NCBI RefSeq assembly: GCF_013185065.1
Contig: NZ_JAAVTO010000006.1
Span: 1 to 64,000 of the forward strand
DNA length: 64,000 nt
Source of the DNA: Adlercreutzia sp. ZJ473
GTDB taxonomy: Bacteria > Actinomycetota > Coriobacteriia > Coriobacteriales > Eggerthellaceae
Reading direction: 5' to 3'
Under the pieces are notes generated by a model, which was not told where the DNA came from, did not search any database, and was given only the letters and a program-made list of their open reading frames with translations. The position numbers and the translations under genes were made by a program. Of the stretch, positions 52,982 to 64,000 are shown piece by piece; the stretch's first letter is position 1, and the number at the start of each line of letters is the position of its first letter.

Positions 52982-53000
52982 CGGCAAGCGCCCCTCGTCC

Positions 53001-53036
53001 ACGGGCGGTGCGACGCGGCTGCGTCGCACCGCCCGT
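53001..53036. terminator. Terminator of the Rpn-type gene
   Basis: A perfect 16-bp stem (53001-53016 with 53021-53036), 4-nt loop, 7 bp from the convergent stop at 53044. Confidence 0.8.
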
Positions 53037-53043
53037 TCGCTTG

Positions 53044-54012
53044 CTAGATCCCCAACTCCTCGTAGAGCCCTTCGAGCAAGGATGGGTCTTCCGCGACCTG
53101 CTTGAGGTCATCTAGGCGACCGTCGGCAAGCAGCCGCGAGACCAGCTCGCCATAGCGCTTCTCCGCCTCGGCACGTCCCTCGGCACGCCCCTCAGCACGT
53201 CCTTCGGCACGCCCTTTGGCACGTCCCTCGGCAAGGCCTTCCTCAATGCCCATCGCAAGCCCTTCCTTGCGGCCCTCGGCACGACCTTCCTTGCGTCCTT
53301 CGGCAAGCCCTTCCTTGCGGCCTTCTTCCAGACCCTCTTTACGGTATACGCGCTTCGCCATGCGGACCTGCATGGCGGCGTCTTCTTCGACAGTCATGAC
53401 TGAGAACACCTGCTCCACCCACCTTCGGTCTCGATTGGCCTCGCTTACCTTGCCGTCGATCATCCTGACCAAAGGGTCAGCGCCGACAACTCCGTCTCTC
53501 ACGTATTTTAGCAGGCTCCGCAAACGGCTGTCCTCAACGCCTTGGTAGGCCGCCGCGTTCAGCACGACCCAATGCGACCCGCACCCCGAGAGCAGCGACG
53601 GATGCTCCACGCACACGCGCTCGAAATCGTAGCGCGGCAGACCGTCCTCATAGGGGTCATCAGTGCAGATAAATATGATGAAACTGTCAGGCAGGAGGTC
53701 ATAGTCCTCCCCCTTGCGCAAAAGCCCCACGTCGATGACGGACTGGTAGTAGCGGAAGCGCTTGTCGATGCACATGCGGCCGTATGCTTGCATCTCGACG
53801 TCGTAGACCGCCTCCTCGCCGACGAGGTAGGCGTCGAGGCGCACCCCGCGCCCGTCGATCGTAGGCTCGATGACTTGCTCGACGTTATGGTACACAACTC
53901 GGCCCACCTCAACGCCGAGCACGACTTCCACCACCTCCCGGCACACGGCTTCATCAGACATGACGCGATCGAACATGGGCGCATCTGCGAACGTCAGATT
54001 CCTCGTCTCCAT
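53044..54012 (-). CDS. Rpn/PD-(D/E)XK nuclease-family protein (transposase-like)
   Basis: A 322-residue protein of the Rpn/putative-transposase PD-(D/E)XK family. RGVRLDAYLVGEEAVYDVEMQAYG supplies Asp and E-x-Q of the nuclease core, preceded by NLTFADAPMFDRVMSDEAV. It has TDDPYEDGLPRYDFERVC and a helical C-terminus with a run of EGR/EGL quartets (KEGLAEGRKEGRAEGRKE and similar, about 225-285) ending in a coiled segment. Rpn proteins can nick DNA and promote RecA-independent recombination. The quartet repeat is encoded by a 12-bp minisatellite and is likely length-variable. ATG 54012 follows AGGAGG. Confidence 0.85.
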   Translation of the reverse strand: METRNLTFADAPMFDRVMSDEAVCREVVEVVLGVEVGRVVYHNVEQVIEPTIDGRGVRLDAYLVGEEAVYDVEMQAYGRMCIDKRFRYYQSVIDVGLLRKGEDYDLLPDSFIIFICTDDPYEDGLPRYDFERVCVEHPSLLSGCGSHWVVLNAAAYQGVEDSRLRSLLKYVRDGVVGADPLVRMIDGKVSEANRDRRWVEQVFSVMTVEEDAAMQVRMAKRVYRKEGLEEGRKEGLAEGRKEGRAEGRKEGLAMGIEEGLAEGRAKGRAEGRAEGRAEGRAEAEKRYGELVSRLLADGRLDDLKQVAEDPSLLEGLYEELGI

Positions 54013-54303
54013 CGGGTCCTCCTGCCCTCTCGTTAACATGGGCATATTATAGCGTACTTTTGTACGAAAAACAAACGTTTGTTTGTAAAATGACTACAAG
54101 ACATCGCGACAAAACAAGGCATAAGAATCTTTTATTGTTCGATAAAGAAAAAGGCTTCGAACTGGGCTTTTGCTCGAAAAAAGACCAGAGCAGAAACCCA
54201 AGGCGGCCAGCCTGGACTACCCTGCATCGAAGCAAAGCGCAGAGGGCCCGCCACATGGTGGCGGGCCCTCTGCTGTCAGAGCTCTTGTCGCCGCCCCGAG
54301 CGC
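54013..54303. other. Intergenic region with AT-rich patch and terminator
   Basis: About 54040-54180 is much more A+T-rich than the rest of the window, with TTTTGTACGAAAAACAAACG and a TTATTG run, consistent with acquired DNA or a promoter zone for the Rpn-type gene. At the right, 54241-54254 pairs with 54258-54271 (14-bp stem, 3-nt loop), a terminator for the exported YD-repeat gene to its right. Confidence 0.6.
54241..54271 (-). terminator. Terminator of the arsM-to-YD-repeat gene block
   Basis: A perfect 14-bp stem with a 3-nt ATG loop, 33 bp past the stop of the exported YD-repeat protein. No U run. Confidence 0.75.
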
Positions 54304-55332
54304 TTATGCGAGCTCGTAAGCGAACGTGATGTTGTAGAGCTGCACGCCGCCCTTCTTGTACACGCGGATCGACGTGAGGTTCCCGTGCTCGTCGTATTTG
54401 AAGTCGTAGTACTTCACCTCGACGTCATCTTGGTAGTAGCGGACCTTCGAGTACTTGCCGCCCGAATACTGGATCACGTACTCGTCACCCGAAAGCTGCA
54501 CCTCGTCGCCTTCCCACGTGCCCCTCTTGAGCGACACGAGCTTGTTCGCGCCGTCGTAGGTCGGCGCCAGGTACGCGCCAGCGCCCTTTCCGTCCTCGGA
54601 CAGCTTCAGCGTCTTGGGCACCTTCTGCGCCGTGACGTAGCTGACGTCGACGGCCCACTCGTGCTTGCCCTTCGAGGCTACCGTGTTCAGGTTCTTGTCC
54701 TTGTCGTAGGTGAACAGCACCGTGTCGTTCGACGTGGTGTCGTCATGCACGACCGTGAACTTGTTCGCGCCGTAAGCGCTGCCCGAGAGCTTCTCGTTCA
54801 CGATGGACGTCTCGAAGTCATGGCGCACGACGCCGCGCCCGTCTCCCTCGTCGGCGTACGTCCAGCCGATCACCTTCGACGCCGAGCCGTGCGCGTCGTA
54901 GGACAGCTGCACGCGCGAGAGCTCGTTGGTGCTCTTGTAGAAGGTGGCCGTCTTCACGTTGCCCGCGTCGTCGTACTTCCACTCGCACTTCTCCACGAAC
55001 TTCTCCGTGGGAAGCGGGAAGCGGCAGTCGCTCACGAGCGCCTCGCGCACGTTCAGGAAGAACGGGTTGCCCTCCACGAACGACAGCCCCTCGAGCAGAG
55101 CCCCGGACGTGCTCTCGATGGCCGAGTCAGCCTCCGCCGAAGCCGTGCAGTCGGAGAGGGTGGCCTTGGCCAGGCGGTATGCGGGCTCGCTTGCGCCCGC
55201 GCCCGCAGCAGCGCCCAAGGCCGCCGCCACCGCGACGCAGCACGCGATCACCGCCACCACGACGGCGGCTCTCGTGCGCGCAAGCTCGCACGGCGTTGCG
55301 CCTCGTTCGGCGTGCGTCGTCTTTCCCGACAT
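54304..55332 (-). CDS. Exported protein with YD (Rhs-like) repeats
   Basis: A 342-residue protein with one N-terminal hydrophobic segment (AAVVVAVIACCVAVAAALGA), a possible signal or anchor. Its exported part has recurring YD-type strands: WKYDDAGNVKTATFY, LSYDAHGSASKVIGW, FTYDKDKNLNTVAS, PTYDGANKLVSLKRG and FKYDEHGNLTSIRVY. YD repeats form beta shells in Rhs/Tc toxins and wall proteins; short arrays like this usually belong to secreted or surface proteins of unknown role. It starts 8 bp after the aquaporin stop, with AGGGG before ATG 55332, so it is the last gene of the block. Confidence 0.78.
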   Translation of the reverse strand: MSGKTTHAERGATPCELARTRAAVVVAVIACCVAVAAALGAAAGAGASEPAYRLAKATLSDCTASAEADSAIESTSGALLEGLSFVEGNPFFLNVREALVSDCRFPLPTEKFVEKCEWKYDDAGNVKTATFYKSTNELSRVQLSYDAHGSASKVIGWTYADEGDGRGVVRHDFETSIVNEKLSGSAYGANKFTVVHDDTTSNDTVLFTYDKDKNLNTVASKGKHEWAVDVSYVTAQKVPKTLKLSEDGKGAGAYLAPTYDGANKLVSLKRGTWEGDEVQLSGDEYVIQYSGGKYSKVRYYQDDVEVKYYDFKYDEHGNLTSIRVYKKGGVQLYNITFAYELA

Positions 55333-55340
55333 GAGAGCCC

Positions 55341-56225
55341 CTACAGGTTCTTCTCGATGGCCGCGATCTCCTTGTTGGCGATCTTGTCGCACGTCTCGCC
55401 GCCGCAGGCGTGAGCGTCAGGGCAGGGCGTCTCGCCGTCGATGACGCACTGGCAGTGCATCGGCATCAGGATGAACTTGTACACGAGCGCCGCCAGGACG
55501 CCGCCGACGAGCGGGCCGACGGTGTACACCAGGATGGCGTCCCAGCTGAACGCCAGGTTGCCGAAGCCCACCATGTAGCCGACCAGGCGCGGGCCCAGGT
55601 CACGCGCGGGGTTCAAGCCGGCGTTGGTGAGCGGGCCCACCGTGCCGATGATGATGGAGACGGTCAGGCCGATGAACAGCGGCGCGAGGTGGCTGTTCGG
55701 GCGGCCGGTGTTCTCGGTGGAGGTGAGCGAGAAGATCACGAGCACCAGGATGAACACGCCGAGGCCCTCGGCGCAGGCGCCCACCACGTTGCTCACGATG
55801 GCGGCCGAGTTGTTCGGGAACACCTCGCACCAGATGCTCGACGCGGCGTTCTTGGCCATCATGGTCACGCCGTTGTCAGCAAGCCACTTCATGACGGTGT
55901 CGGCGAACAGGCCCCACAGCGCCATGGCGGCGACCCACGCGCCCACGAACTGCCCGATGAGGTAGGGGATCAGCTCGCACGCGGGCATGCGCCCGGCGAC
56001 CACCATGGCCACCGAGACGGCCGGGTTGAAGTGCGCGCCCGAGAAGTGGCGGCACACGTAGATGGCGATGGCGATGGTGATGCCCCACATCAGGCCCACC
56101 TGGTAGTTGCCCGTCATGGTGCCGCACAGCGACGTCACCGCCACGGCGCCGATGCCGAAGAAGCACATCATGAACGTGCCGATGAACTCTCCGGTGATGA
56201 GTTTCAAAGTCTTGTTCTTCATCAT
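55341..56225 (-). CDS. Aquaglyceroporin (MIP family) with Cys-rich C-terminal tail
   Basis: A 294-residue MIP channel with both NPA boxes: SGAHFNPAVSVAM and AGLNPARDLGPRLVG. The Asp after the second box (NPARD) marks the glycerol-conducting subgroup, whose members also pass As(OH)3 and methylated arsenicals. The cytosolic tail is unusual: PMHCQCVIDGETPCPDAHAC, then GGETCDK, with several Cys that could bind a thiophilic metal or metalloid. It lies 6 bp after the TorD-family gene and 8 bp before the YD-repeat gene, in the arsM-initiated block. Confidence 0.9.
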   Translation of the reverse strand: MMKNKTLKLITGEFIGTFMMCFFGIGAVAVTSLCGTMTGNYQVGLMWGITIAIAIYVCRHFSGAHFNPAVSVAMVVAGRMPACELIPYLIGQFVGAWVAAMALWGLFADTVMKWLADNGVTMMAKNAASSIWCEVFPNNSAAIVSNVVGACAEGLGVFILVLVIFSLTSTENTGRPNSHLAPLFIGLTVSIIIGTVGPLTNAGLNPARDLGPRLVGYMVGFGNLAFSWDAILVYTVGPLVGGVLAALVYKFILMPMHCQCVIDGETPCPDAHACGGETCDKIANKEIAAIEKNL

Positions 56226-56231
56226 TGATCC

Positions 56232-56933
56232 TTACTTTTCTGCTTCCTGCATGAGGTTCGTTTCGATCAGAAGGGAGTCCTCCACCAAGACCAGCGGAAG
56301 GAGCCTCCCCAGGTTGCGATAGAAGTCGGTTTGCGCGCAGCTGACGACCGAGGCGCTCATCGCGCCCACCCACGGACGCACGTAGCGTGCGAAGAAGTCG
56401 CTGGCGAGCCGCGCGAGCTCGTCGGCGCGCGCCGCAGCAGCGTCCCCGCCCGCAGCGTCCCCGTCCGCAGCGGCAGCCTCGCCCGCCAGCGCCGCGTCGC
56501 GCAGCACGGCGAACAGAAACTCGCACATCGTCGCCAGGTGGTCGCCCGGCTGCTTGCGGCTCTCCGCGAGCACGAGCCCGAAGCGCTCGTAGGCCCGCTC
56601 GACGGCTACCGTGCTCGCGCCGCCCAGACGGCGCTCGCCGTCGAGGTAGTACGACGCGTACGGAGGCGCGAGCATCTCGAACGCCCCTATGAACAGCGAC
56701 GTGTAGTCGCGCTCAAGCTCGAGGCCCTCCGCGCGCTCGGCGGCTGCAGCCGCCTCGAGCGCCAGCGCGTGCTCGTCCGCCTCGTCGGTGAACAGCCCCG
56801 CCAGCTCGCGCGCGCACGCGGCAAGCTCAGGGGCGCCCGCGCCGTCGGCCGGGTAGCGCAGCAGGCGCGCCGTCAGGCGAAGCACCGTGGCTTGGCAGAT
56901 TAGCTCCTCTTCGGTCATCAGCATGCGGCGCAC
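56232..56933 (-). CDS. TorD/DmsD-family molybdoenzyme chaperone
   Basis: A 233-residue all-helical protein with the TorD/DmsD pattern: LELERDYTSLFIGAFEMLAPPYASYY near residue 75-100, AERFGLVLAESRKQPGDH-type segment (written YERFGLVLAESRKQPGDHL) and the C-terminal FARYVRPWVGAMSASV. These chaperones bind the Tat leader of a molybdenum catalytic subunit and hold it until cofactor insertion. The client is the oxidoreductase at 57620-60247. The start is a GTG at 56933; an ATG three codons on is possible. An Ala/Gly/Asp-rich insert lies at about 150-175. Confidence 0.85.
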   Translation of the reverse strand: MRRMLMTEEELICQATVLRLTARLLRYPADGAGAPELAACARELAGLFTDEADEHALALEAAAAAERAEGLELERDYTSLFIGAFEMLAPPYASYYLDGERRLGGASTVAVERAYERFGLVLAESRKQPGDHLATMCEFLFAVLRDAALAGEAAAADGDAAGGDAAAARADELARLASDFFARYVRPWVGAMSASVVSCAQTDFYRNLGRLLPLVLVEDSLLIETNLMQEAEK

Positions 56934-56934
56934 C

Positions 56935-57615
56935 CTAGAACTTCCCCACGTAGTACACGTTGGGGCTGGTCCCGTACTCGGGATGGCTCACCGACACGTC
57001 GGAGTCGGCCAGGGCCTTCGCGATGTCGGACTCGGGGTCCTCCACGTCGCCCCAGATGCGCGCGCCCGCCGGGCACATGTGCACGCAGTAGGGGTCATCG
57101 CCCGCGTCGATCAGGTGCTTGCAGAAGTTGCACTTCTCGGACTTGCCCGCGTCCATGAGGAGCGACTCGCTCGTCACCTTGAAGTTGCCGTACGGGACCG
57201 GCGCGCCGGACTCCTTCGCCACCTCGGCGCCCGAGGACGTGCAGCCCTCGATCAGCTCGTCGGTCGACGCGAACTCGTCGAACGCCTTCGGGTCGCGCAT
57301 CATGGTGAAGCCGTAGGGGCACGCCGCCACGCACGCGCCGCAGCCGATGCAGGCCGCGTCGTCGTGGATGGTGAGCCCGTCTACCTTCTTCTGCGCCCCC
57401 ACCGGGCACGCCGCCACGCAGGCCGCGTTGTCGCAGTGGTTGCACATCGTGGGGATGTAGCGGTACGTCACCTTCGGGAACGTCCCCGACATCACCGTCT
57501 CGTGACGCGAGTAGAAATGCCCCTCGCCCACGGTGTTCTCGATCTTGCACGCGATCTGGCAGGCGCTGCAGCCAACGCATTTGCCCAGGTCGATGAGCAT
57601 TGCATACTTGGTCAT
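56935..57615 (-). CDS. Four-cluster ferredoxin subunit (DmsB/ArrB-like)
   Basis: A 226-residue iron-sulfur electron-transfer subunit with four [4Fe-4S] motifs: CVGCSACQIACK, CNHCDNAACVAACP, CIGCGACVAACP and CNFCKHLIDAG...CVHMCP. It would pass electrons between the quinol pool and the molybdenum subunit encoded 4 bp upstream. It has no signal peptide and would be exported with the Tat-bearing partner. There is no NrfD- or DmsC-type membrane subunit in the window, which also fits the ArrAB type, in which the quinol dehydrogenase is encoded elsewhere. ATG 57615 with GAGGTAGG. Confidence 0.92.
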   Translation of the reverse strand: MTKYAMLIDLGKCVGCSACQIACKIENTVGEGHFYSRHETVMSGTFPKVTYRYIPTMCNHCDNAACVAACPVGAQKKVDGLTIHDDAACIGCGACVAACPYGFTMMRDPKAFDEFASTDELIEGCTSSGAEVAKESGAPVPYGNFKVTSESLLMDAGKSEKCNFCKHLIDAGDDPYCVHMCPAGARIWGDVEDPESDIAKALADSDVSVSHPEYGTSPNVYYVGKF

Positions 57616-57619
57616 ATGC

Positions 57620-60247
57620 CTACCTCGCCTTCTTGATCGCAACGCGCGTGACGCCGCCGTGACGCGCGGTCGAGGAGCTCAGGCGCTCCCACTCGGCCGG
57701 CAGGATCTCGTTGTTGTTGCCGCCGCGGGGCTTGGCGTGCTCGAAGTCAACCGCAGCCACGTGCCCGTAGGCCCAGTGCCCCTGGCCGTAGCACTTCACC
57801 ACCACGCCGGGGCGCGTGCCCTCCCAGCCCTTCGCGTGCACCGTGATCGAGCCGCTCGGAGAAGTCACCACGATCTCGTCGCCGTCCTTCAAGCCGAGTT
57901 TTCTCATGTCGGACGGGTTGACCTTGAGGACGTCATCCCACGCCTCGTCACCGGGATCGGAATCCTTGAACTCCTGGTACCACGTGAGGTTGGCGCTGCG
58001 GCCCTCGCGGTTCAGGCGCGAGCGGTGCTCGCTGAACACGAACGGGAAGTCGCCCTCGTCGCCGTGGCGCAGCGGCTCCTCGTAGTGCGGCACGAAGCAC
58101 AGGCCGTCGCGTGCCTGGTAGTTGCACGCCTCCATGAGGGAGTTCACGTCGGTCTTGTAGCTGTTGCAGTGCTCGAGCAGGATCTCGCGCAGCGTCTCGC
58201 TGTAGAACTCGAACTTGCCCGTGTGCGTGCCGAAGTCCTTGTAGTGCTTCTTGTAGGTCATGCGGTCGGAGTTCCACACGCCGTTCTTCAGGAAGTCGGA
58301 CCACTTCTTGATGTCGTCGCCGCCGGCCGCCGCGGACGGGTCCCACGCGGGCTGCGTGAAGCGGCGCACCACCGACTGGCCGAACTCCTCGGCGTTGGTG
58401 GGACGGTTGCCGCCGTAGGCGTCGTGGCATTCGATGGAGTAATAGTCGTAGAGCTTGCTCCAGCCCTTATCGCGCAGCTTCTCGGCGAGCGCCCACGCGA
58501 TCTCCGTCTCGTCGTTCCTCGCCTCGAACAGCGTCTCGACGCACGGCTGCTCGACGCTCAGGTAGCCGTAGAGGTTCTGCTTGTTCTTCACGAAGCCCCA
58601 CGCCTCGAACATATGGTGCTTCGCGGGGAGCACGATGTCGGCGAACTGGCTCATCTCGGAGGCGTTCGTGGTGATGTGCACGAAGAACTCGAGCTTGGGC
58701 AGCGCCTCCTCCCAGCGCTGGGCGCCGGTGCAGGAGTACGCCCAGTTGTTCCAGTACGAGATCATCATCTTGATCTGGTACGGCTCACCCGAGATGATGG
58801 CGTCGGCGACGCGGTTGGTGTTCTGGTTGTGGCCGGACTCGCCCTTCTCGATGGACACGAAGTCGAAGTTCTGGCGCTGGTCGGCCTTGGCCTTCTTCAG
58901 GCCCTTCTTCGCCTTGGAGTCCTTGTAGGCGTACATGTCGGCCAGATGCCCCGTGGAGATGCTCGGGCTGCGCATCACGCCGCCCTCGGCCTCGTAGGAG
59001 CCCACCAGGCCGTTCAGCGCAAAGCACGCCATGCCCGTGTAGGCGCCGCGCGCCGTCATGCACACGCCCGGCGAGATCCACGAGATGGCCTTGTTCTTCT
59101 GCGTGGCGAACGCGCGCGCCACCTCCACGATGGTCTCCGCGTCGATGCCGGTTATCTCGGCCGCCCACTCAGGAGTCTTGTCGTGCAGCTCCAGGTTCCA
59201 CCAGCGGCAAATGCCGTGGGTGTACTTCTCGTCGAACCAGTACTCGTTCGACGAGCTGGGGCCGCCCGGATACACCTGGTTGCCGCCGCGGTACTTCCCG
59301 TAGACCTCCCACAGGTTCTCGTCAAGCGGCTCGCCGCTGCCGAAGTAGTTGAAGCCGTCCTCGAAGTCGCCCACGAACTCCTTGTTCCACAGGCCCTCCT
59401 TGAGGATGACGTGCGCCATGGCCGAGGCCAGCGCGCCGTCGGTGCCCGGGATGATGGGCAGCCACTTGTCGGCCTTGGCGGCCGTGGCGGACAGGCGCGG
59501 GTCGACCACGATGATCTTGGCGTTCGCATGCATCTTGTCGAACTGGCTGATCGCGTTGGAGATCTGGCGGTTCGACGATATGGGGTCGGCGCCCCACATG
59601 ATGACGTACTTCGTGTGGAGCATGTCGTAGTCGTGGTAGTCCCAGTATCCGCAGAGCGCGCCGGTGGCCAGCTTCTCAGCCTCGGCGCAGATGGACGAGT
59701 GGGAGAAGCGGTTCGGCGTGCCGTAGATCTCGGGCAGCGCCTTGTGGAAGACGTCGGCGATGCCGGTGGAGCGGCCCTTCGCCACGGCGAGCTTGTGAGC
59801 CTCGCCGTTGTCGCGCAGCTCGAGCAGCTTGTCCGCGATCTCGTCGAGCGCCTCGTCCCAGCTGACGGGGACGAAGCCCGGGTCGATGCCGCGGCCCTTC
59901 TCGGGGTTCGTGCGGCGCATGGGGTATTTCACGCGATCGGGGTCGTATTGCTGCTGGAGCGCCAGCAAGGCGTTAGGGCACACGCAGCCATGGTTGCCCT
60001 TGGCGTTGGGGTTGCCCTCGACCTTGGTGGCGCGGCCGTCCTGCACGTACACGCGCACGGCGCAGTTCGACGTGCAGCCCTGGCAGCTCGACATCACCCA
60101 TTTGCCCGAGCCCTTGGAGGAGCCCGAGCTGGAGCTCACGTCCTCCACGGCACCGGGCGCCTCGGCGAACGCTGCCAAGGGCTGCGCGGCCAGCGCAGCC
60201 GCGCCGCAGGTGGCGGCGGATAGTTTCAAAAACGTACGACGATCCAT
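57620..60247 (-). CDS. Tat-exported molybdopterin oxidoreductase, ArrA-like
   Basis: An 875-residue catalytic subunit of the DMSO-reductase superfamily. It has a Tat leader (RRTFLK at 3-8, AXA cleavage about 28), a [4Fe-4S] motif CQGCTSNC at 55-62 with Cys88/90, PVSWDEALDEIADKLLEL, and a candidate molybdenum ligand Cys187 in HSSICAEAEKL. It also has VIMWGADPISSNRQIS and VDPRLSATAAKADKWLPIIPGTDGALA. This combination, and the DPDRVKYPMRRTNPEKGRG region, resembles respiratory arsenate reductase ArrA and its TtrA/SrrA relatives from what I know of them; length fits. Start ATG 60247 with GGAGGGG. Substrate not proven; arsM, 83 bp upstream in the same direction, supports arsenic. Confidence 0.8.
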   Translation of the reverse strand: MDRRTFLKLSAATCGAAALAAQPLAAFAEAPGAVEDVSSSSGSSKGSGKWVMSSCQGCTSNCAVRVYVQDGRATKVEGNPNAKGNHGCVCPNALLALQQQYDPDRVKYPMRRTNPEKGRGIDPGFVPVSWDEALDEIADKLLELRDNGEAHKLAVAKGRSTGIADVFHKALPEIYGTPNRFSHSSICAEAEKLATGALCGYWDYHDYDMLHTKYVIMWGADPISSNRQISNAISQFDKMHANAKIIVVDPRLSATAAKADKWLPIIPGTDGALASAMAHVILKEGLWNKEFVGDFEDGFNYFGSGEPLDENLWEVYGKYRGGNQVYPGGPSSSNEYWFDEKYTHGICRWWNLELHDKTPEWAAEITGIDAETIVEVARAFATQKNKAISWISPGVCMTARGAYTGMACFALNGLVGSYEAEGGVMRSPSISTGHLADMYAYKDSKAKKGLKKAKADQRQNFDFVSIEKGESGHNQNTNRVADAIISGEPYQIKMMISYWNNWAYSCTGAQRWEEALPKLEFFVHITTNASEMSQFADIVLPAKHHMFEAWGFVKNKQNLYGYLSVEQPCVETLFEARNDETEIAWALAEKLRDKGWSKLYDYYSIECHDAYGGNRPTNAEEFGQSVVRRFTQPAWDPSAAAGGDDIKKWSDFLKNGVWNSDRMTYKKHYKDFGTHTGKFEFYSETLREILLEHCNSYKTDVNSLMEACNYQARDGLCFVPHYEEPLRHGDEGDFPFVFSEHRSRLNREGRSANLTWYQEFKDSDPGDEAWDDVLKVNPSDMRKLGLKDGDEIVVTSPSGSITVHAKGWEGTRPGVVVKCYGQGHWAYGHVAAVDFEHAKPRGGNNNEILPAEWERLSSSTARHGGVTRVAIKKAR

Positions 60248-60330
60248 GAGGTGAAAGTCCCCTCCTTTCTCTCTTCTTGCTTTCCTCAACCTGCTTTGAG
60301 GCCGCCCTCGCGAGGCGGCTCTGGGGCGCG

Positions 60331-61389
60331 TTAGCAGCAGCCGCAGCCGCAGCCGCCGTCCTCGTCGTCGCCGGTGTCGTACGGAATGTTGCCGCAGCCG
60401 GGGAACGGGCCGTAGTGGACCGAGCGGTCGCCCTCGATGGCAAACGCCGCGCCGAAGCGCGTGTTCTCCACCATGGCGCACGAGTTGCCGCACACGTCGA
60501 GCGGCACGTCCTTCATGAAGCGATGGTGGTCGTCAAGGTCGAAGTAGTCGGGCATGCCGGGGATGGTGCCAAGGTAGGTGGCCTTCTGGTTGTACTGCTC
60601 GCAGAGGTCCTCGAGCTGCGCGGGCAGCTTGAACGCGCGCACGGTGCGCGAGAAGAACGTGGCGCCCTCGACCTTGGCGGCCAGCTCGGCGTCGTCGACG
60701 TGCTTTACGCGCGAGGCGGTGTAGCGGAAGTCATCCCAGCCCACGCGGCGCATGAGACGGCGGAAGTCCTCGATGTACATCGCGCCGCCGATGCATTCCC
60801 CGCGCAGGACGGGATCGTTCTGCTGGGCCTCGGTCATGCGGCGGTCGACGAAGATGTCGGAGAAGTACAGCTCGCCGCCCTCCTTCAGCACGCGCCAAAC
60901 CTCGGAGAACACCTGCTCCTTGAACGGGGAGAGGTTGATGACGCAGTTGGAGATGACCACGTCGATGGAGTCATCGGCGATGCCGAGCGCGGCGAGGTCC
61001 TCGATGTAGCCGCACTTGAACTCCACGTTGCTGGCGGCGTACCCGTATGCGCGCGCCACCTCGTCTTGGTACTTGCGGCCGACCTCGAGCTGGCTCTCGG
61101 TCATGTCCACGCCGATCACGCGACCCTTCTCGCCAACCAGCTTCGACAGCACGAACACGTCGCGGCCCGTGCCGCAGCCCAGGTCGAGCACCGTGCAGCC
61201 CTCGATCATCGGCGGAATGGGGCTTCCGCATCCGTAGAAGCGCTCGTTCACCTCAGCAGGCAGGCCGTCGATGATGTCCTGGACCTCCTGCGAGGCCGAC
61301 GAGCACGAGCACACGCTCGTCTTCAGGTCGCCGGACGACTGAAGAGCGCTGTAGTACTCCTTGACCTTCTCGCGAATGTCTTCACTCAT
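60331..61389 (-). CDS. arsM: Arsenite S-adenosylmethionine methyltransferase
   Basis: ArsM methylates As(III) to mono-, di- and trimethyl species. The 352-residue protein has the SAM motif VLDLGCGTGRDVFVLSKLVG, the ArsM signature VVISNCVINLSPFKEQVF and the conserved catalytic cysteines: C27/C29 (SVCSCSS), C149 (SNCVIN) and C199 (RGECIGGAMYIEDF). A Cys-rich tail (GGCGCGCC) is an added possible arsenic ligand. It starts the block arsM - ArrA-like - ArrB-like - TorD - aquaglyceroporin - YD-repeat. A small hairpin (60301-60319) separates it from the next gene. GGAAGGA precedes ATG 61389. Confidence 0.93.
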   Translation of the reverse strand: MSEDIREKVKEYYSALQSSGDLKTSVCSCSSASQEVQDIIDGLPAEVNERFYGCGSPIPPMIEGCTVLDLGCGTGRDVFVLSKLVGEKGRVIGVDMTESQLEVGRKYQDEVARAYGYAASNVEFKCGYIEDLAALGIADDSIDVVISNCVINLSPFKEQVFSEVWRVLKEGGELYFSDIFVDRRMTEAQQNDPVLRGECIGGAMYIEDFRRLMRRVGWDDFRYTASRVKHVDDAELAAKVEGATFFSRTVRAFKLPAQLEDLCEQYNQKATYLGTIPGMPDYFDLDDHHRFMKDVPLDVCGNSCAMVENTRFGAAFAIEGDRSVHYGPFPGCGNIPYDTGDDEDGGCGCGCC

Positions 61390-61481
61390 GCGCAAATCCT
61401 TCCTTCCTAGTCTTCGCCGCTCACCTGCAACCCTTGGCAATCCCCCCTTATATGCTTTATTTGATTGATTGCGGCCTATTA

Positions 61482-61539
61482 CTATTGGTTTAAGTCCAAT
61501 AGCAGTTTCAAATTGTAAAGTTTTACACGAAAATTACAA
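61482..61539 (-). promoter_or_regulatory. Promoter and operator-like inverted repeat of the arsM block
   Basis: Minus-strand -35 TTGTAA (61534-61539), 16-bp spacer, -10 TACAAT (61512-61517). A 7-bp perfect inverted repeat with a 7-bp spacer, CTATTGG (61482-61488) and CCAATAG (61496-61502), sits at about +3 to +23, where a repressor would block transcription. The whole zone 61441-61600 is A+T-rich, unlike its surroundings. No ArsR-type gene is in the window. Confidence 0.7.
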
Positions 61540-61560
61540 GAGGTGTGCCAAAATTAGTGC

Positions 61561-61659
61561 TTGACTGCTAATAGATTATGTCTTATATTGAGGACGGTCT
61601 GAAACACACAGGAGAGCGGTCGGCAGCAACCCCCCAAGTTGCCGGCCGCTCTCCTGTGT
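61561..61659 (+). promoter_or_regulatory. Plus-strand promoter running straight into a 22-bp hairpin
   Basis: -35 TTGACT (61561-61566), 17-bp spacer, -10 TATATT (61584-61589), start near 61597. Nine bases on, 61606-61619 pairs perfectly with 61646-61659, and the stem continues inward with wobble pairs to near 61627/61638. No gene follows within 270 bp and no U run is seen. It could be a short RNA, a terminated leader, or just a two-way terminator. Confidence 0.55.
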
Positions 61660-61934
61660 CATGAGACGGGAACGCCCGCGCACCGTGCGCGTGCAGGCGC
61701 CTTCTTCGGCCTCCCTTGCGGGCTTCTTGCGGGGCTTCGTTCGCGCGCCGTGTGCGGGCAGGCGCCTTCTTCACGCGAACGCGCCTCGCATCGCGCGCAA
61801 CCGCACTTCCGCACGCACGGCCTTTCGCATGAGCGCGCCGCGTCAAGCCCGCAAACTCGCTCTCAGTACTTTATTCATTGTGGAATTCCGTATATAATTC
61901 ATCGCAAATCAATCCTCTGGGGAAACGAGGCGCC
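61660..61934 (+). promoter_or_regulatory. Promoter region of the YefM/ParE-type pair
   Basis: -10 TATAAT at 61893-61898 with a weak -35 TTTATT (61870-61875), 17-bp spacer, giving a leader of about 30 nt. Upstream, GCAGGCGCCTTCTTC occurs twice (near 61692 and 61759) in otherwise featureless GC-rich DNA. Confidence 0.55.
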
Positions 61935-62240
61935 ATGAACCCTGCCCTTGCCGAGCTGCCCGTCATCCGACCCATCACCGACCTGCGCACGCAGCTCAAC
62001 AGCGTGTGCGAGCAGGCAACCGAGACGTGGAAGCCCGTGGTGCTCACCAAGAACGGCGCGCCCTCCTACGTCCTGATGGACAGCGCCGCATACGAGGCCG
62101 CCGAGCGCAACAACCGCCGCTACCTCGCCCTGCGCGAGGCGGAGATCGAGGAGCGCTACCGCCCGCAGTCCATGTCCAAGGAGGAGTCGGACGCCAAGAT
62201 GCGCGAGATCTTCGCGCTGTGGGGCATCGACTATGCTTGA
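61935..62240 (+). CDS. Phd/YefM-family antitoxin
   Basis: A 101-residue protein of the Phd/YefM type: PVIRPITDLRTQLNSVCEQA followed by PVVLTKNGAPSYVLMDSAAYE, the family hallmark, and a charged C-terminal tail (YLALREAEIEERYRPQSMSK). GAGGCGCC precedes ATG 61935. It overlaps the toxin gene by 8 bp. Confidence 0.9.
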   Translation: MNPALAELPVIRPITDLRTQLNSVCEQATETWKPVVLTKNGAPSYVLMDSAAYEAAERNNRRYLALREAEIEERYRPQSMSKEESDAKMREIFALWGIDYA

Positions 62241-62544
62241 CATAGCCTGGCGCCCGCGCGCCCACCTTGACCGCGAGTCCATCGCCATCTTCCTGGCCGT
62301 CGAGCGCAGCTCGCCGCAGGCCGCCCTCGCCGCCATGCAGAGCATCGACGCAGCGCTTGACATGGCGCGCCGCTTCCCCGACGCAGGCGGGCACTTCCAC
62401 CACGACAACCTTGAGCACGATTACCGCACCGTCCTGGCGAATCCCTATACCGTCTTCTACCGCTTCGACGAAGCCACGCTCACGGTGTACCGCATCCTCC
62501 ACCAGCGCCAAGACATAGACGCCTACTCTCTCGTCGAGTTCTGA
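62233..62544 (+). CDS. ParE/RelE-family toxin
   Basis: A 103-residue ParE/RelE-fold toxin: MLDIAWRPRAHLDRESIAIF, AAMQSIDAALDMARRFPDAG, EHDYRTVLANPYTVFYRFDE and TVYRILHQRQDIDAY. The final IxRxLHxRQDI motif is characteristic of ParE-type toxins that act on gyrase. Coupled to the YefM-like antitoxin. It lies between the two arsM-type genes, which suggests the intervening DNA has been subject to insertion. Confidence 0.88.
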   Translation: MLDIAWRPRAHLDRESIAIFLAVERSSPQAALAAMQSIDAALDMARRFPDAGGHFHHDNLEHDYRTVLANPYTVFYRFDEATLTVYRILHQRQDIDAYSLVEF

Positions 62545-62554
62545 CGCGCATCGC

Positions 62555-62639
62555 GCAGGGCGGCTCTTGCGGCAGGGCGGTCCTTGCAGCAGAGCGCTCC
62601 TTGCAGCAGCACGGCTCTTGCAGCCGAGCGGTTCTCCCT
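62555..62639. repeat. Five 17-bp tandem repeats
   Basis: Exact 17-bp phasing: 62555, 62572, 62589, 62606 and 62623. Consensus GCAGGGCGGCTCTTGCA; the first four units match it at 14 or more bases and the fifth is diverged. It lies directly after the ParE-type gene and before the arsM-like promoter region. Confidence 0.85.
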
Positions 62640-62658
62640 GGCTCCCGGCCCTCTTCTC

Positions 62659-62706
62659 TATGCTAGGCTCAGTCAGCTCATTTATGCTAGACTTAGTCAA
62701 CTAGTT
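62659..62706 (+). promoter_or_regulatory. Two 24-bp direct repeats before the second arsM-like gene
   Basis: Units at 62659-62682 and 62683-62706 share TATGCTAGRCTYAGTCARCT at the same phase. The second ends in AACTAGTT, a palindrome. A+T content rises here. Repeated 10-bp-phase-related sites just upstream of a start codon (62744) suggest cooperative regulator binding; no good -35/-10 pair is clear. Confidence 0.6.
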
Positions 62707-62743
62707 ATTTGAAGCAAGCCAATCGGAGATCAAGGACAGCTTT

Positions 62744-63835
62744 ATGGACTACGCCGCCTACTATCGCAAAGCCGAGGGGGACTACCTCGCCTACTACGCC
62801 GCCATCGCCCAGACCCAGGGGCGCGACCCCCAGGCGACCGCCCGCACGCGCGACGCCGACGGCACCATCCCCGAGGAAGCCCGCCCGCTGCTCTACAACG
62901 TGTCGGCCGAGATCAAGAACACGTTCCACGAGTTCGGCGCTCCCCTGCCGCCGCTTCTGGAAGGCTGCACCGTGCTCGACCTGTGCTGCGGAAGCGGCCG
63001 CGACACCTACCTGGCCGCCCAGCTCGTCGGCGCGCAGGGCAAGGTCATCGGCGTCGAGCCGGTAGCCGCGCGCCTCGCCGTCGCGCAGAAGTACCTCGCG
63101 CAGGAGATCAAGCAGTTCGGCTACGACGAGTGCAACGTCGAGCTGGTGAACGCCGCGCCCGAGGACCTCTCGTTCGTCGCCGACGGGTCGGTCGACGTGG
63201 TCATCTCCAACTGCACGTTCAACCTGTCGCCGGACAAGGAGCGCTACATCGCCGAGGTCAAGCGCGTGCTGAAGGACGGCGGCGAGTGGTACTTCACCGA
63301 CGTGTTCTGCGACCGCCGCATCCCACAGGCAACGTCCGACCAGGTGGAGAACGTCGCCATGCGCCTGGGCGGCGCCCTGTTCATCGAGGACTTCCGCCGT
63401 CTGGCGCAAGCTGCCGGATTCCACGACCCGCGCTACCTCATGACGTGGCAGACGCCTGTCTCGCCCGACGAGGCCGCCGTCTACCCCGGCATCGCGTTCG
63501 CCACCATCACGAGCCGCCTCATCAACTCCGAGCTCACGTCCGACCACTGCGAGGACTACGGCGAGGAGGTCACCTACGACGGCTCGCTGCCCGGCTACCC
63601 TGAGTTCTTCCTGTACGACAAGGACATCAAGCTCCCCGCCGGAAAGGCGTGCCCCACGTGCGACAACGTTTCGGTGCTGCCGCTTGCCACGCGCTACGCG
63701 AAAGTCATCAGCGTCACCGGCTCGCGCGACGTGCACTACGGCGACATTCGCGGCGACCGCATCATCAAGTGCGCGCCCGACTTCGACGGCGTGGTGGACG
63801 AGGACGACCAGCCCATCCAGGTCAGCTGCTGCTAG
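62744..63835 (+). CDS. ArsM-like methyltransferase lacking most catalytic cysteines
   Basis: A 363-residue paralogue of ArsM: SAM motif VLDLCCGSGRDTYLAAQLVG, signature VVISNCTFNLSPDKERYI with C157, and LGGALFIEDFRRLAQAAGF. Compared with the arsM at 60331-61389 it keeps the central Cys, but the N-terminal Cys pair has no counterpart and the Cys of ECIGGAMYIEDF is replaced (MRLGGALFIEDF). It ends in a Cys pair (QVSCC) and has an extra CPTCDN motif near 304. It may methylate another (metallo)metabolite or act on already methylated arsenic. AAGGA precedes ATG 62744. Confidence 0.85.
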   Translation: MDYAAYYRKAEGDYLAYYAAIAQTQGRDPQATARTRDADGTIPEEARPLLYNVSAEIKNTFHEFGAPLPPLLEGCTVLDLCCGSGRDTYLAAQLVGAQGKVIGVEPVAARLAVAQKYLAQEIKQFGYDECNVELVNAAPEDLSFVADGSVDVVISNCTFNLSPDKERYIAEVKRVLKDGGEWYFTDVFCDRRIPQATSDQVENVAMRLGGALFIEDFRRLAQAAGFHDPRYLMTWQTPVSPDEAAVYPGIAFATITSRLINSELTSDHCEDYGEEVTYDGSLPGYPEFFLYDKDIKLPAGKACPTCDNVSVLPLATRYAKVISVTGSRDVHYGDIRGDRIIKCAPDFDGVVDEDDQPIQVSCC

Positions 63836-63970
63836 CGAAGGCGCCGGGGGGCGCCCGGAGCCCGGAGCCCGGAGCCCGGAAGAGCATGCTCGAGGAGCAG
63901 CCGGCACCCCGCCTCTCCCCCGGCGTGCGAGGCGCCCGTCAGAGCAGGCGGGCGCCTCGCACGCTATAAT
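63836..63970 (+). terminator. Terminator after the arsM-like gene and promoter for the next gene
   Basis: After short CCCGGAGC direct repeats (about 63850-63880), a 16-bp perfect stem (63923-63938 with 63949-63964, 10-nt loop) ends the transcript. It abuts TATAAT at 63965-63970, a likely -10 for a gene that begins beyond the right edge; GAGGAG near 63990-63995 would be its ribosome-binding site. Confidence 0.7.
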
Positions 63971-64000
63971 GCTGCAAGCCAACTTACGACGAGGAGACAG

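Follow-up and report, generated by a model that had tools for sequence, protein, structure and literature searches.

A probable Eggerthellaceae arr operon with its own arsenic methyltransferase and MIP channel genes in Adlercreutzia sp. ZJ473

Gut microbes alter the toxicity of swallowed arsenic, and the window studied here, the whole 64,000-nucleotide stretch of Adlercreutzia sp. ZJ473 DNA that was analysed, raises the question of whether arsenate respiration, arsenic methylation and release of the product are encoded together in one operon. The initial annotation described six minus-strand genes behind one promoter-like site with an operator-like repeat, and the open reading frames were confirmed at the positions given in Table 1, occupying 54304-61389 in the order arsM, arrA, arrB, torD-like gene, MIP channel and YD-repeat protein, with gaps of 83, 4, 1, 6 and 11 bp (the last being 8 bp if the ATG of the YD gene is taken as its start). 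With a probability of roughly 60%, we read this row as an Eggerthellaceae arr operon that has a built-in arsenic-handling pair, arsM and a dedicated MIP channel, and no anchor gene.

Table 1 Features of the operon and its surroundings in the window.
Feature	Position	Strand	Basis or remark
Intrinsic-terminator-like hairpin, 16-bp stem	54239..54273	-	Follows last gene of the row
YD/Rhs-ribbon-like protein, predicted N-terminal helix	54304..55332	-	TIGR01643/PF05593 at threshold only; ATG at 55332
MIP-family channel, NPA/NPA, NPARD, Cys-rich C-terminus	55341..56225	-	TIGR00861 174.3 bits, above 171.25 cut-off
torD/arrD-like assembly chaperone, GTG start	56232..56933	-	PF02613 (TorD/NarJ type), E 2e-25
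arrB, iron-sulfur electron-transfer subunit, four ferredoxin-type Cys groups	56935..57615	-	NF041715, Fer4 domains
arrA, respiratory arsenate reductase catalytic subunit-like, Mo-bisPGD type, 875 aa, divergent KGRS type	57620..60247	-	Profile, tree, PDB match
KGRS codons, residues 157-160 of ArrA, equivalent of (R/K)GRY motif	59768..59779	-	Alignment
arsM, As(III) S-adenosylmethyltransferase-like, 352 aa	60331..61389	-	ATG after AGGAAGGAAGG; cysteines, profile
Operator-like palindrome TATTGG-N7-CCAATA, perfect	61483..61501	.	Just downstream of -10-like box
Sigma-70-like promoter TTGTAA-16-TACAAT	61512..61539	-	9/12 consensus matches only
ArsM-like paralogue, 1/4 cysteines	62744..63835	+	First gene of second cluster

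The promoter call is a weak result: 53500-63000 holds four sigma-70-like sites, where shuffled sequence has a mean of 1.2. No second copy of the palindrome beside the promoter occurs in the 2.63-Mb genome with ≤1 mismatch allowed; another genome of the family (G072) has an exact copy with arrA on one side and the channel gene on the other, and a one-mismatch site lies upstream of arr in Adlercreutzia faecimuris (G057). One-mismatch matches in relatives stood at about the level of a reversed-pattern control, and of these only sites at arr loci were used. At the other end of the row, the hairpin gave a z of -7.1 and was equalled by none of 200 shuffles, in a terminator scan that overall found 4 sites versus 5.8 expected. 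A known RNA regulator of the operon was ruled out by Rfam, with no match at gathering scores within 53000-64000. TA and Rpn-type genes were also observed near the operon.

The catalytic subunit, which carries a Tat signal (TAT_signal, PF10518), belongs to the ArrA clade. It scored 943.7 bits against NF041714, compared with 1096-1145 bits for four clade-typical ArrAs and 431-438 bits for two ArxAs, and the cut-off of this profile (1600 bits) was missed by the window protein and likewise by all four of the other clade-typical ArrAs. Among structures, PDB 6cz7 (Shewanella ANA-3 ArrA) matched at 846 bits and the next at 191, ruling out enzymes of the thiosulfate/polysulfide reductase, formate dehydrogenase and DMSO reductase types. 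In a tree with an ArxA pair and outgroup molybdoenzymes as comparators, the window protein joined the ArrA of Mesobacillus selenatarsenatis SF-1 and Robertmurraya (SH-aLRT 99); the 43-row ArrA branch had a support of 100 and the two ArxAs lay on a separate branch (100), with a weak root (56). This separate branch, the absence of XGRGWG and the difference between 431-438 and 944 bits ruled out an ArxA. In the numbering of Shewanella ArrA, the equivalents of R165, H189, S190, C193, K198, Y210 and R484 are kept, so that the Mo-ligand Cys and the charged arsenate-pocket residues (R165, H189, K198 and R484) are all present; the ArxA pair carries V or E at 198 and V or A at 484. The phylogeny was checked against non-arsenic clades and, as tree, HMM score and seven of the eight compared pocket positions all place the protein in the ArrA clade, no firm grouping outside it appeared and the earlier ArrA-like assignment holds. 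The predicted structure (pLDDT 51.9) was too poor for pocket measurement and was not used.

The (R/K)GRY motif marks ArrA, according to PMC6549141, and the window protein has KGRS in its place, which counts against the arr-operon reading. The last residue of the motif is S in all 11 distinct proteins of a sub-clade (10 from Eggerthellaceae and one from Lachnospiraceae) versus Y in 76/76 other ArrAs, and Y166->S is the only position that is invariant in the 76 and differently invariant in the 11, a conservative R/K change aside; position 190, which is S in 76/76 others, is relaxed to S/A/G/D. These two changes, along with 65 segments matching related reductases in this genome, would suit a reductase that descends from ArrA but has shifted its substrate, to methylated or aromatic arsenicals or to some different oxyanion, leaving arsenate secondary. 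We regard this as unlikely, as the charged pocket residues R165, H189, K198 and R484 are kept in 11/11 proteins of the sub-clade, and two other KGRS-type arr loci (G068 and L062) each encode a histidine kinase and a binding protein resembling ArrX, which also speaks for the arr-operon reading. A Cys retained in both of these binding proteins lines up with one in a Sulfuricella ArxX-like protein and thus, through this intermediary, probably corresponds to AioX Cys106; ArrX binds arsenate (PMC5908839). It is quite improbable that Y166->S and the relaxed S190 have opened the pocket of the sub-clade so that organic arsenic acids, methylarsenate for example, would be reduced besides or instead of arsenate; if so, with this enzyme, ArsM, the channel and a nearby ArsM-ArsS fusion, the cell would operate a closed organoarsenic respiratory cycle. 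Y166S offers a one-residue hypothesis for substrate range.

In the preferred reading as an arr operon, the next two genes encode the electron-transfer subunit and its assembly chaperone. ArrB matched NF041715 best among 44 families, with 219.8 bits, below the cut-off of 450 that SF-1 ArrB also misses (341.7 bits). The TorD chaperone proposed earlier was borne out by its PF02613 match, and a TorD-like gene is found in 70/80 named arr loci; for the YD-repeat protein, the YD/RHS match stood at threshold only. The model of the latter had a pLDDT of 55.9 and its top Foldseek matches were weak, mostly Rhs/teneurin shells with TM (query) ≤0.27; the protein occurs in 2 relatives at 60% identity. Relative to ArrAB of Shewanella ANA-3 (6cz7) and SF-1, the operon shares the clade, the cofactor-binding Cys, the Fe-S subunit, the TorD-like chaperone and the Tat-type signal, but differs in having KGRS in place of RGRY, in lacking arrC/nrfD and arrXS, and in containing arsM and the MIP gene. 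The absence from the operon itself of a membrane anchor gene (arrC/nrfD) and of ArrX/ArrS counts against the arr-operon reading; the SF-1 arr locus has an ArrX-like gene and one of nrfD type nearby, whereas the window operon has neither. ArxA, represented by Sulfuricella denitrificans skB26 and by a Cereibacter ORIO protein so called from its motif, forms the sister lineage of ArrA, and the GRGWG motif is its own.

The identity of ArsM, also proposed by the initial annotation, proved canonical by its cysteines: all four expected residues are present (equivalents of 44, 72, 174 and 224, which we take as the reference numbering) with a CGCGCC tail, and the protein shows no sign of export. It resembles the known As(III) methyltransferase in these four conserved cysteines, the Cys tail and membership of the SAM-methyltransferase family, but lies in an arr rather than an ars operon and falls below the cut-off of PRK11873 (NF008823; 186.1 versus 263 bits). 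The scores of ArrA, ArrB and ArsM below their strict NCBIfam cut-offs weigh against the arr-operon reading. It is 59-64% identical to five MIP-adjacent ArsMs (L196, L198-L201), and in the ArsM tree one branch (100/100) separates the Eggerthellaceae rows from four arr-locus ArsMs outside the family. Arr-linked methyltransferases lacking three or all four of these cysteines were found in G057, G029, G115 and G117 (the last cut by a contig end), and G072 and G068 have no methyltransferase beside arr, both of which also count against that reading. Separately, the second cluster, which opens with the ArsM-like paralogue, extends past the window with a CobW GTPase and then the ArsM-ArsS fusion.

Channels of this kind recur with arsenic genes. 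Fourteen that are linked to ArsM or arr group in a single clade (90/97) apart from 16 unlinked ones, which were taken from 32 and had no ArsM match at any of their 15 loci; identity to the window channel is 46-77% for the 13 other linked MIPs and 29-33% for the 16 unlinked. No other MIP was found in the window genome, MIPs are promiscuous, and the As-binding cysteines are missing from several ArsM-like proteins nearby, all of which would agree with an ordinary glycerol/water facilitator beside methyltransferases acting on a non-arsenic substrate; the gap in identity between linked and unlinked channels and the four cysteines kept by the window ArsM make this very unlikely. Of 177 plasmid records carrying a related MIP, the best 20 were 32-35% identical to the channel and GlpF-like. 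A Cys-rich end is indeed present on the window channel, which had been called Cys-tailed, but is common to only 3/6 arr-linked channels, so that it was rejected as a trait that the system has in general. By description, the channel can be likened to AqpS, the aquaglyceroporin of the Sinorhizobium meliloti ars operon (PMC6205960), in that a MIP channel is genetically tied to arsenic genes, although here it is paired with arsM and arr.

Two relatives, A. faecimuris (G057/L022/L061) and a congener (G029/L023), have the arrA-arrB-torD-MIP-YD block with its gene order unchanged, so the block is neither chance nor a contig chimera. The position of arsM varies: A. faecimuris has in first place an arsM remnant that lacks the cysteines and contains a stop, the congener has arsM last, and G115 and G117 carry it next to the channel gene in divergent orientation. 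A search for gene order in Eggerthellaceae thus recovered the block from arrA to YD in two relatives, but the fixed arsM-first order that had been proposed was ruled out, an intact arsM standing first only in the window. The association of arsM with the reductase was upheld at the level of genomes, ArsM-like proteins occurring in 7/10 family genomes with ArrA-like proteins versus 32/128 others (p = 0.0055, uncorrected for relatedness), but not of adjacency, which fails in G072 and G068. A Fisher test of linked MIPs against ArsM (12/13 versus 27/125) is partly circular, because ArsM linkage helped choose the rows, and is given no weight here.

These data bear on whether arsM and the channel belong to the operon or are a detoxification pair that hitch-hiked into it, an independent Eggerthellaceae arsenic-resistance module that would respond to arsenic generally, with no linked respiration step. 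The pair occurs without arr at 9 Eggerthellaceae loci, its placement and order relative to arr vary, and the neighbouring TA and Rpn-type genes suggest mobile surroundings. Moreover, arr-linked channels form no clade of their own and are mixed with those of ArsM-only pairs, which counts against the arr-operon reading; within the linked MIPs only the window and A. faecimuris channels join firmly (98/94). Against this, the MIP gene adjoins arr in 6/8 family arrAB loci, one of the other two being cut by a contig end, and in none of 77 loci outside Eggerthellaceae, and it lies within the gene row at short distances (flanking gaps of 6 and 11 bp in the window, and of 54 and 6 bp in the ORF table of G029). 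We consider hitch-hiking possible, if rather doubtful.

The sequence data show the operon structure, the place of ArrA in its clade, KGRS, the complete ArsM cysteines and the channel clade with its repeated linkage to ArsM and arr, whereas substrate, direction of flow, electron donor, regulation and the role of the YD protein are inferred. In the proposed scheme, ArrAB, matured by the TorD-like chaperone and exported by Tat, would reduce arsenate to arsenite at the outer face of the membrane, and a quinol-oxidising partner whose genes lie elsewhere would supply the electrons. Arsenite is uncharged at neutral pH, and may cross the membrane both ways through the MIP channel until equilibrium; cytoplasmic ArsM would methylate the arsenite that comes in, and As(III), methylated or inorganic, would leave by the same channel. 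The promoter palindrome, as a putative repressor site, could switch on respiration and handling of its toxic product jointly. The initial annotation had proposed that the cell respires, methylates and exports: component genes of these kinds are present, but the scheme needs arsenite to re-enter, as Arr has an export signal and ArsM shows no sign of export. Because Arr should act outside the membrane and ArsM inside, their coupling would not be direct, and the channel must admit arsenite before releasing product, re-entry presumably taking place through this same MIP. The channel need not be the sole arsenical exit, since the window genome encodes an ArsP_1-family permease (PF03773 at 222 bits, over the Pfam cut-off; best NCBIfam match a Cu/Zn efflux model, at 103 bits against a cut-off of 300) and an ArsB-family protein (PF02040 at 63.8 bits, over the Pfam cut-off; ArsB models at 78-99 bits, far below theirs). 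Acr3 (E 1e-30) was found in 2/138 family genomes, the window genome not among them; this, and the fact that the single MIP of the genome is the operon's, speak for the arr-operon reading.

If an operon makes arsenite extracellularly and also encodes a methyltransferase and a channel, a single organism would couple arsenic mobilisation to methylation, and this combination of known parts with one active-site change looks unusual. Among the papers listed in a search of open-licence literature, none reported arsenate respiration genes in Eggerthellaceae, which is a weak negative. The human-gut bacterium Parasutterella excrementihominis, of a different phylum, likewise has arrAB; PMC3954881 reports arrAB and arsM in different strains. 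Within the family, A. faecimuris JBNU-10 is a named, cultured relative that carries arr, though its arsM is broken.

All six minus-strand genes proposed in the initial annotation were present and tightly packed, in the 5' to 3' order arsM, arrA, arrB, torD-like, channel (MIP) and YD protein with gaps of 83, 4, 1, 6 and 11 bp (the last being 8 bp if YD starts at the ATG at 55332), and a 16-pair hairpin lay 3' of the last gene. Of the single promoter with an operator-like repeat, the repeat was found as a palindrome, whereas the promoter amounted to a consensus match only. At up to one mismatch the palindrome was the sole such site in the 2.63-Mb genome holding the window on contig C75 (G000), where the reversed-pattern control gave 0. 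In the relative G072, whose ArrA is 58% identical, the exact site occurred once, between arrA and the channel gene, which diverge, and one-mismatch sites occurred at two other places in the genome. Adlercreutzia faecimuris JBNU-10 (G057) had two one-mismatch sites, of which one lay upstream of arr; in the congener G029 the corresponding place held a half site alone, and the remaining genomes gave counts close to the control's.

Features of the window and of related loci (L, compared locus; C, contig)
Feature	Location	Strand	Remarks
Promoter-like site	61539-61512	minus	consensus match only
Palindrome TATTGG-N7-CCAATA	61483-61501		directly after promoter-like site
arrA, catalytic subunit	57620-60247	minus	
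Strong hairpin (z -5.0)	61590-61670		upstream of arr promoter; without T run
Phd/YefM antitoxin and ParE-type toxin pair	61911-62544		between arr operon and second ArsM cluster
Rpn-family recombination-promoting nuclease/transposase-like gene	53044-54045		directly downstream of operon; a hint of mobility
ArsM-like paralogue	62744-63835		in window; first gene of second cluster
ArsM-ArsS fusion (radical SAM, DUF3641), 767 aa	L020:3196-5499 (C75)		preceded by CobW GTPase gene
arsM-like remnant, internal stop	L022:7552-8277 (A. faecimuris, G057)		arsM position before arrA
ArrX-like binding protein and histidine kinase	L029:5346-7786; L062:11126-13542		next to arr genes of the KGRS type; may sense arsenate
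Second G000 ArrA-like protein	L021:9365-12337 (C52)		KGRS type; about 48-51% identical

The catalytic subunit is a true ArrA-clade enzyme with a Tat signal. Against solved structures it scored 846 bits with Shewanella ArrA and 191 with the next, a thiosulfate reductase. On the NCBIfam ArrA model it scored 943.7 bits, compared with 1096-1145 for four other clade-typical ArrAs and 431-438 for two ArxAs, and none of these six controls reached the curated cut-off of 1600. Its assignment to ArrA was borne out by a 50-row tree, built by a quick method with 32 of the 80 named arr loci, in which it fell inside the 43-row ArrA branch (100), apart from ArxA (100) and grouped with Mesobacillus selenatarsenatis SF-1 and Robertmurraya (SH-aLRT 99), although the outgroup branches are long, the root has weak support (56) and the program warned that the ArxA and ArrA branches are long ones that join.

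Where ArrA is expected to have (R/K)GRY, the operon enzyme reads KGRS, which marks a sub-clade (98) of ten Eggerthellaceae proteins from nine genomes, two of them from G000, and one Lachnospiraceae protein (L062); an eleventh family protein, from G123, is cut short and was excluded. Aligning all 80 named loci with the ten family proteins, and dropping from the count L061, L082 and L094 as repeats of family rows, we found serine in 11/11 distinct sub-clade proteins versus tyrosine in 76/76 other ArrAs, and the sole other position parting them equally cleanly lay within this motif and was the conservative exchange of R for K. One report gives (R/K)GRY as the mark of ArrA and XGRGWG as that of ArxA (PMC6549141). 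This stated feature fails in the sub-clade, since serine replaces the tyrosine. Using residue numbers and roles that we assume for the Shewanella ArrA pocket, the equivalents of R165, H189, C193, K198 and R484 were kept in all 11 proteins. Ten of the 11 have Y at position 210, while S, A, G or D stands at position 190. The KGRS-type loci of G068 and L062 each also encode a histidine kinase together with a protein of the phosphonate-binding type, and these binding proteins keep a cysteine aligning with that of the SF-1 ArrX-like and Sulfuricella ArxX-like proteins; the candidate lipoproteins encoded next to arr in G115 and G072 do not belong to this family. One study reports that ArrX binds arsenate (Kd 1 uM) and that Cys106 of AioX binds arsenite (PMC5908839). 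Because ArrX-like proteins and histidine kinases adjoin KGRS-type arr genes at these two loci, the neighbourhood favours arsenate as the substrate.

The ArrA query matched 65 segments in G000, which thus holds many related molybdoenzymes. Near its second ArrA-like gene no arrB, torD or MIP match was found, nor was any arrB match near the similar genes of G112 and G094; these three proteins may be something else.

ArrA-like genes occurred in 10/138 family genomes at E 1e-150 or better and, in an even phylum sample at E 1e-120, in 1/396, the window's own. Among 77 named loci outside the family (flanks of at most 8 kb; contig ends left 24 of the full 80 shorter than 12 kb), ArrB matched in 73, TorD in 67, ArsM in four (L066, L076, L117, L130), and MIP and YD in none. 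Within the family, MIP lay in or beside the arr genes at six of eight arrAB loci (window, G057, G029, G072, G115, G117), the others being G068 and G123, whose contig ends at arrA, and an ArsM-like gene adjoined arr at five (window, G057, G029, G115, G117). The proposed fixed order with arsM first did not hold: arsM is first and intact in the window, first but a remnant in G057, whose arrA, arrB, MIP and YD are open reading frames, last in G029, and divergent beside MIP in G115 and G117 (the latter interrupted by a contig end). An nrfD-type anchor gene precedes arrA in G068 and SF-1; the other six arr genomes had no nrfD match beside arr, and all seven had matches elsewhere (1 to 21 each; 11 in G000). 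Since none adjoins arr, the window's Arr must, judging by gene content, draw electrons from a partner encoded elsewhere in the genome.

MIP also adjoined an ArsM-like gene at nine arr-free family loci (L196, L198-L205), in the order MIP then ArsM in eight, with the MIP reading split in L204. Counting ArsM-like loci that were neither fusions nor of the 62744 type, 14 of 19 had MIP, including five arr loci where both genes sit in one row or are neighbours opposite arr; those lacking it were L195, L197, L040, L206 and L208, a contig-end piece that may be part of L205's. In the MIP tree (L204 excluded), a branch (90/97) separated the 14 linked channels from 16 unlinked family MIPs picked from 15 regions, a further 16 being outside the tree. 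None of these 15 regions had an ArsM match, and one (L233) had weak molybdoenzyme matches. Arr-linked and ArsM-only channels were intermixed in the linked clade, and among the window channel's nearest the sole firm join was with G057 (98/94).

The window ArsM (METHYLTRANSFERASES) has all the cysteines that we take to be catalytic. Proteins of this canonical kind accompany MIP in the window, L196 and L198-L201, and a cysteine-poor kind, missing most As-binding cysteines, does so in L202-L205, L207, L023 (12272-13264), L025 and the L022 remnant. A second cluster, mostly just beyond the window end, comprises the ArsM-like paralogue, a CobW-type GTPase gene and the fusion, whose N-half is an ArsM with all cysteines, 59% identical to the window's, and whose C-half scored 327 bits on ArsS (cut-off 300), an arsenosugar radical-SAM enzyme. 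ArsM followed by in-frame ArsS recurs across the family, as does the set of fusion and preceding CobW GTPase gene, which may make adenosylated arsenicals. In G115 all three modules sit inside about 15 kb.

One operon-like row thus joins a Tat-signal ArrA-clade enzyme, an ArsM and a linked-clade channel. The linear "respire, methylate, export" scheme first put forward omits a re-entry step demanded by topology: arsenate would be reduced outside the cell, arsenite would enter through the channel and be converted by ArsM, perhaps also by the fusion, and the product could diffuse out or leave through either the channel or a different carrier. The operon's MIP gene is the only one in G000, and Acr3, found in 2/138 family genomes, is absent there. 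A further exit is possible, as G000 has an ArsP_1-family permease (222 bits, above the Pfam cut-off; its best NCBIfam model, for Cu/Zn efflux, fell short of the cut-off) as well as an ArsB-family protein (63.8 bits, above the Pfam cut-off; 78-99 bits on ArsB models with cut-offs of at least 415). AqpS of Sinorhizobium is a precedent for an aquaglyceroporin in a pump's place (PMC6205960). Every part of the operon is known in kind; the portions of open-licence literature covered described neither arr, arsM and MIP in combination nor this clade of channels nor a KGRS signature, a weak negative. Gut-derived Eggerthellaceae relatives (roe deer, goat) suggest that the window's host is a gut dweller.
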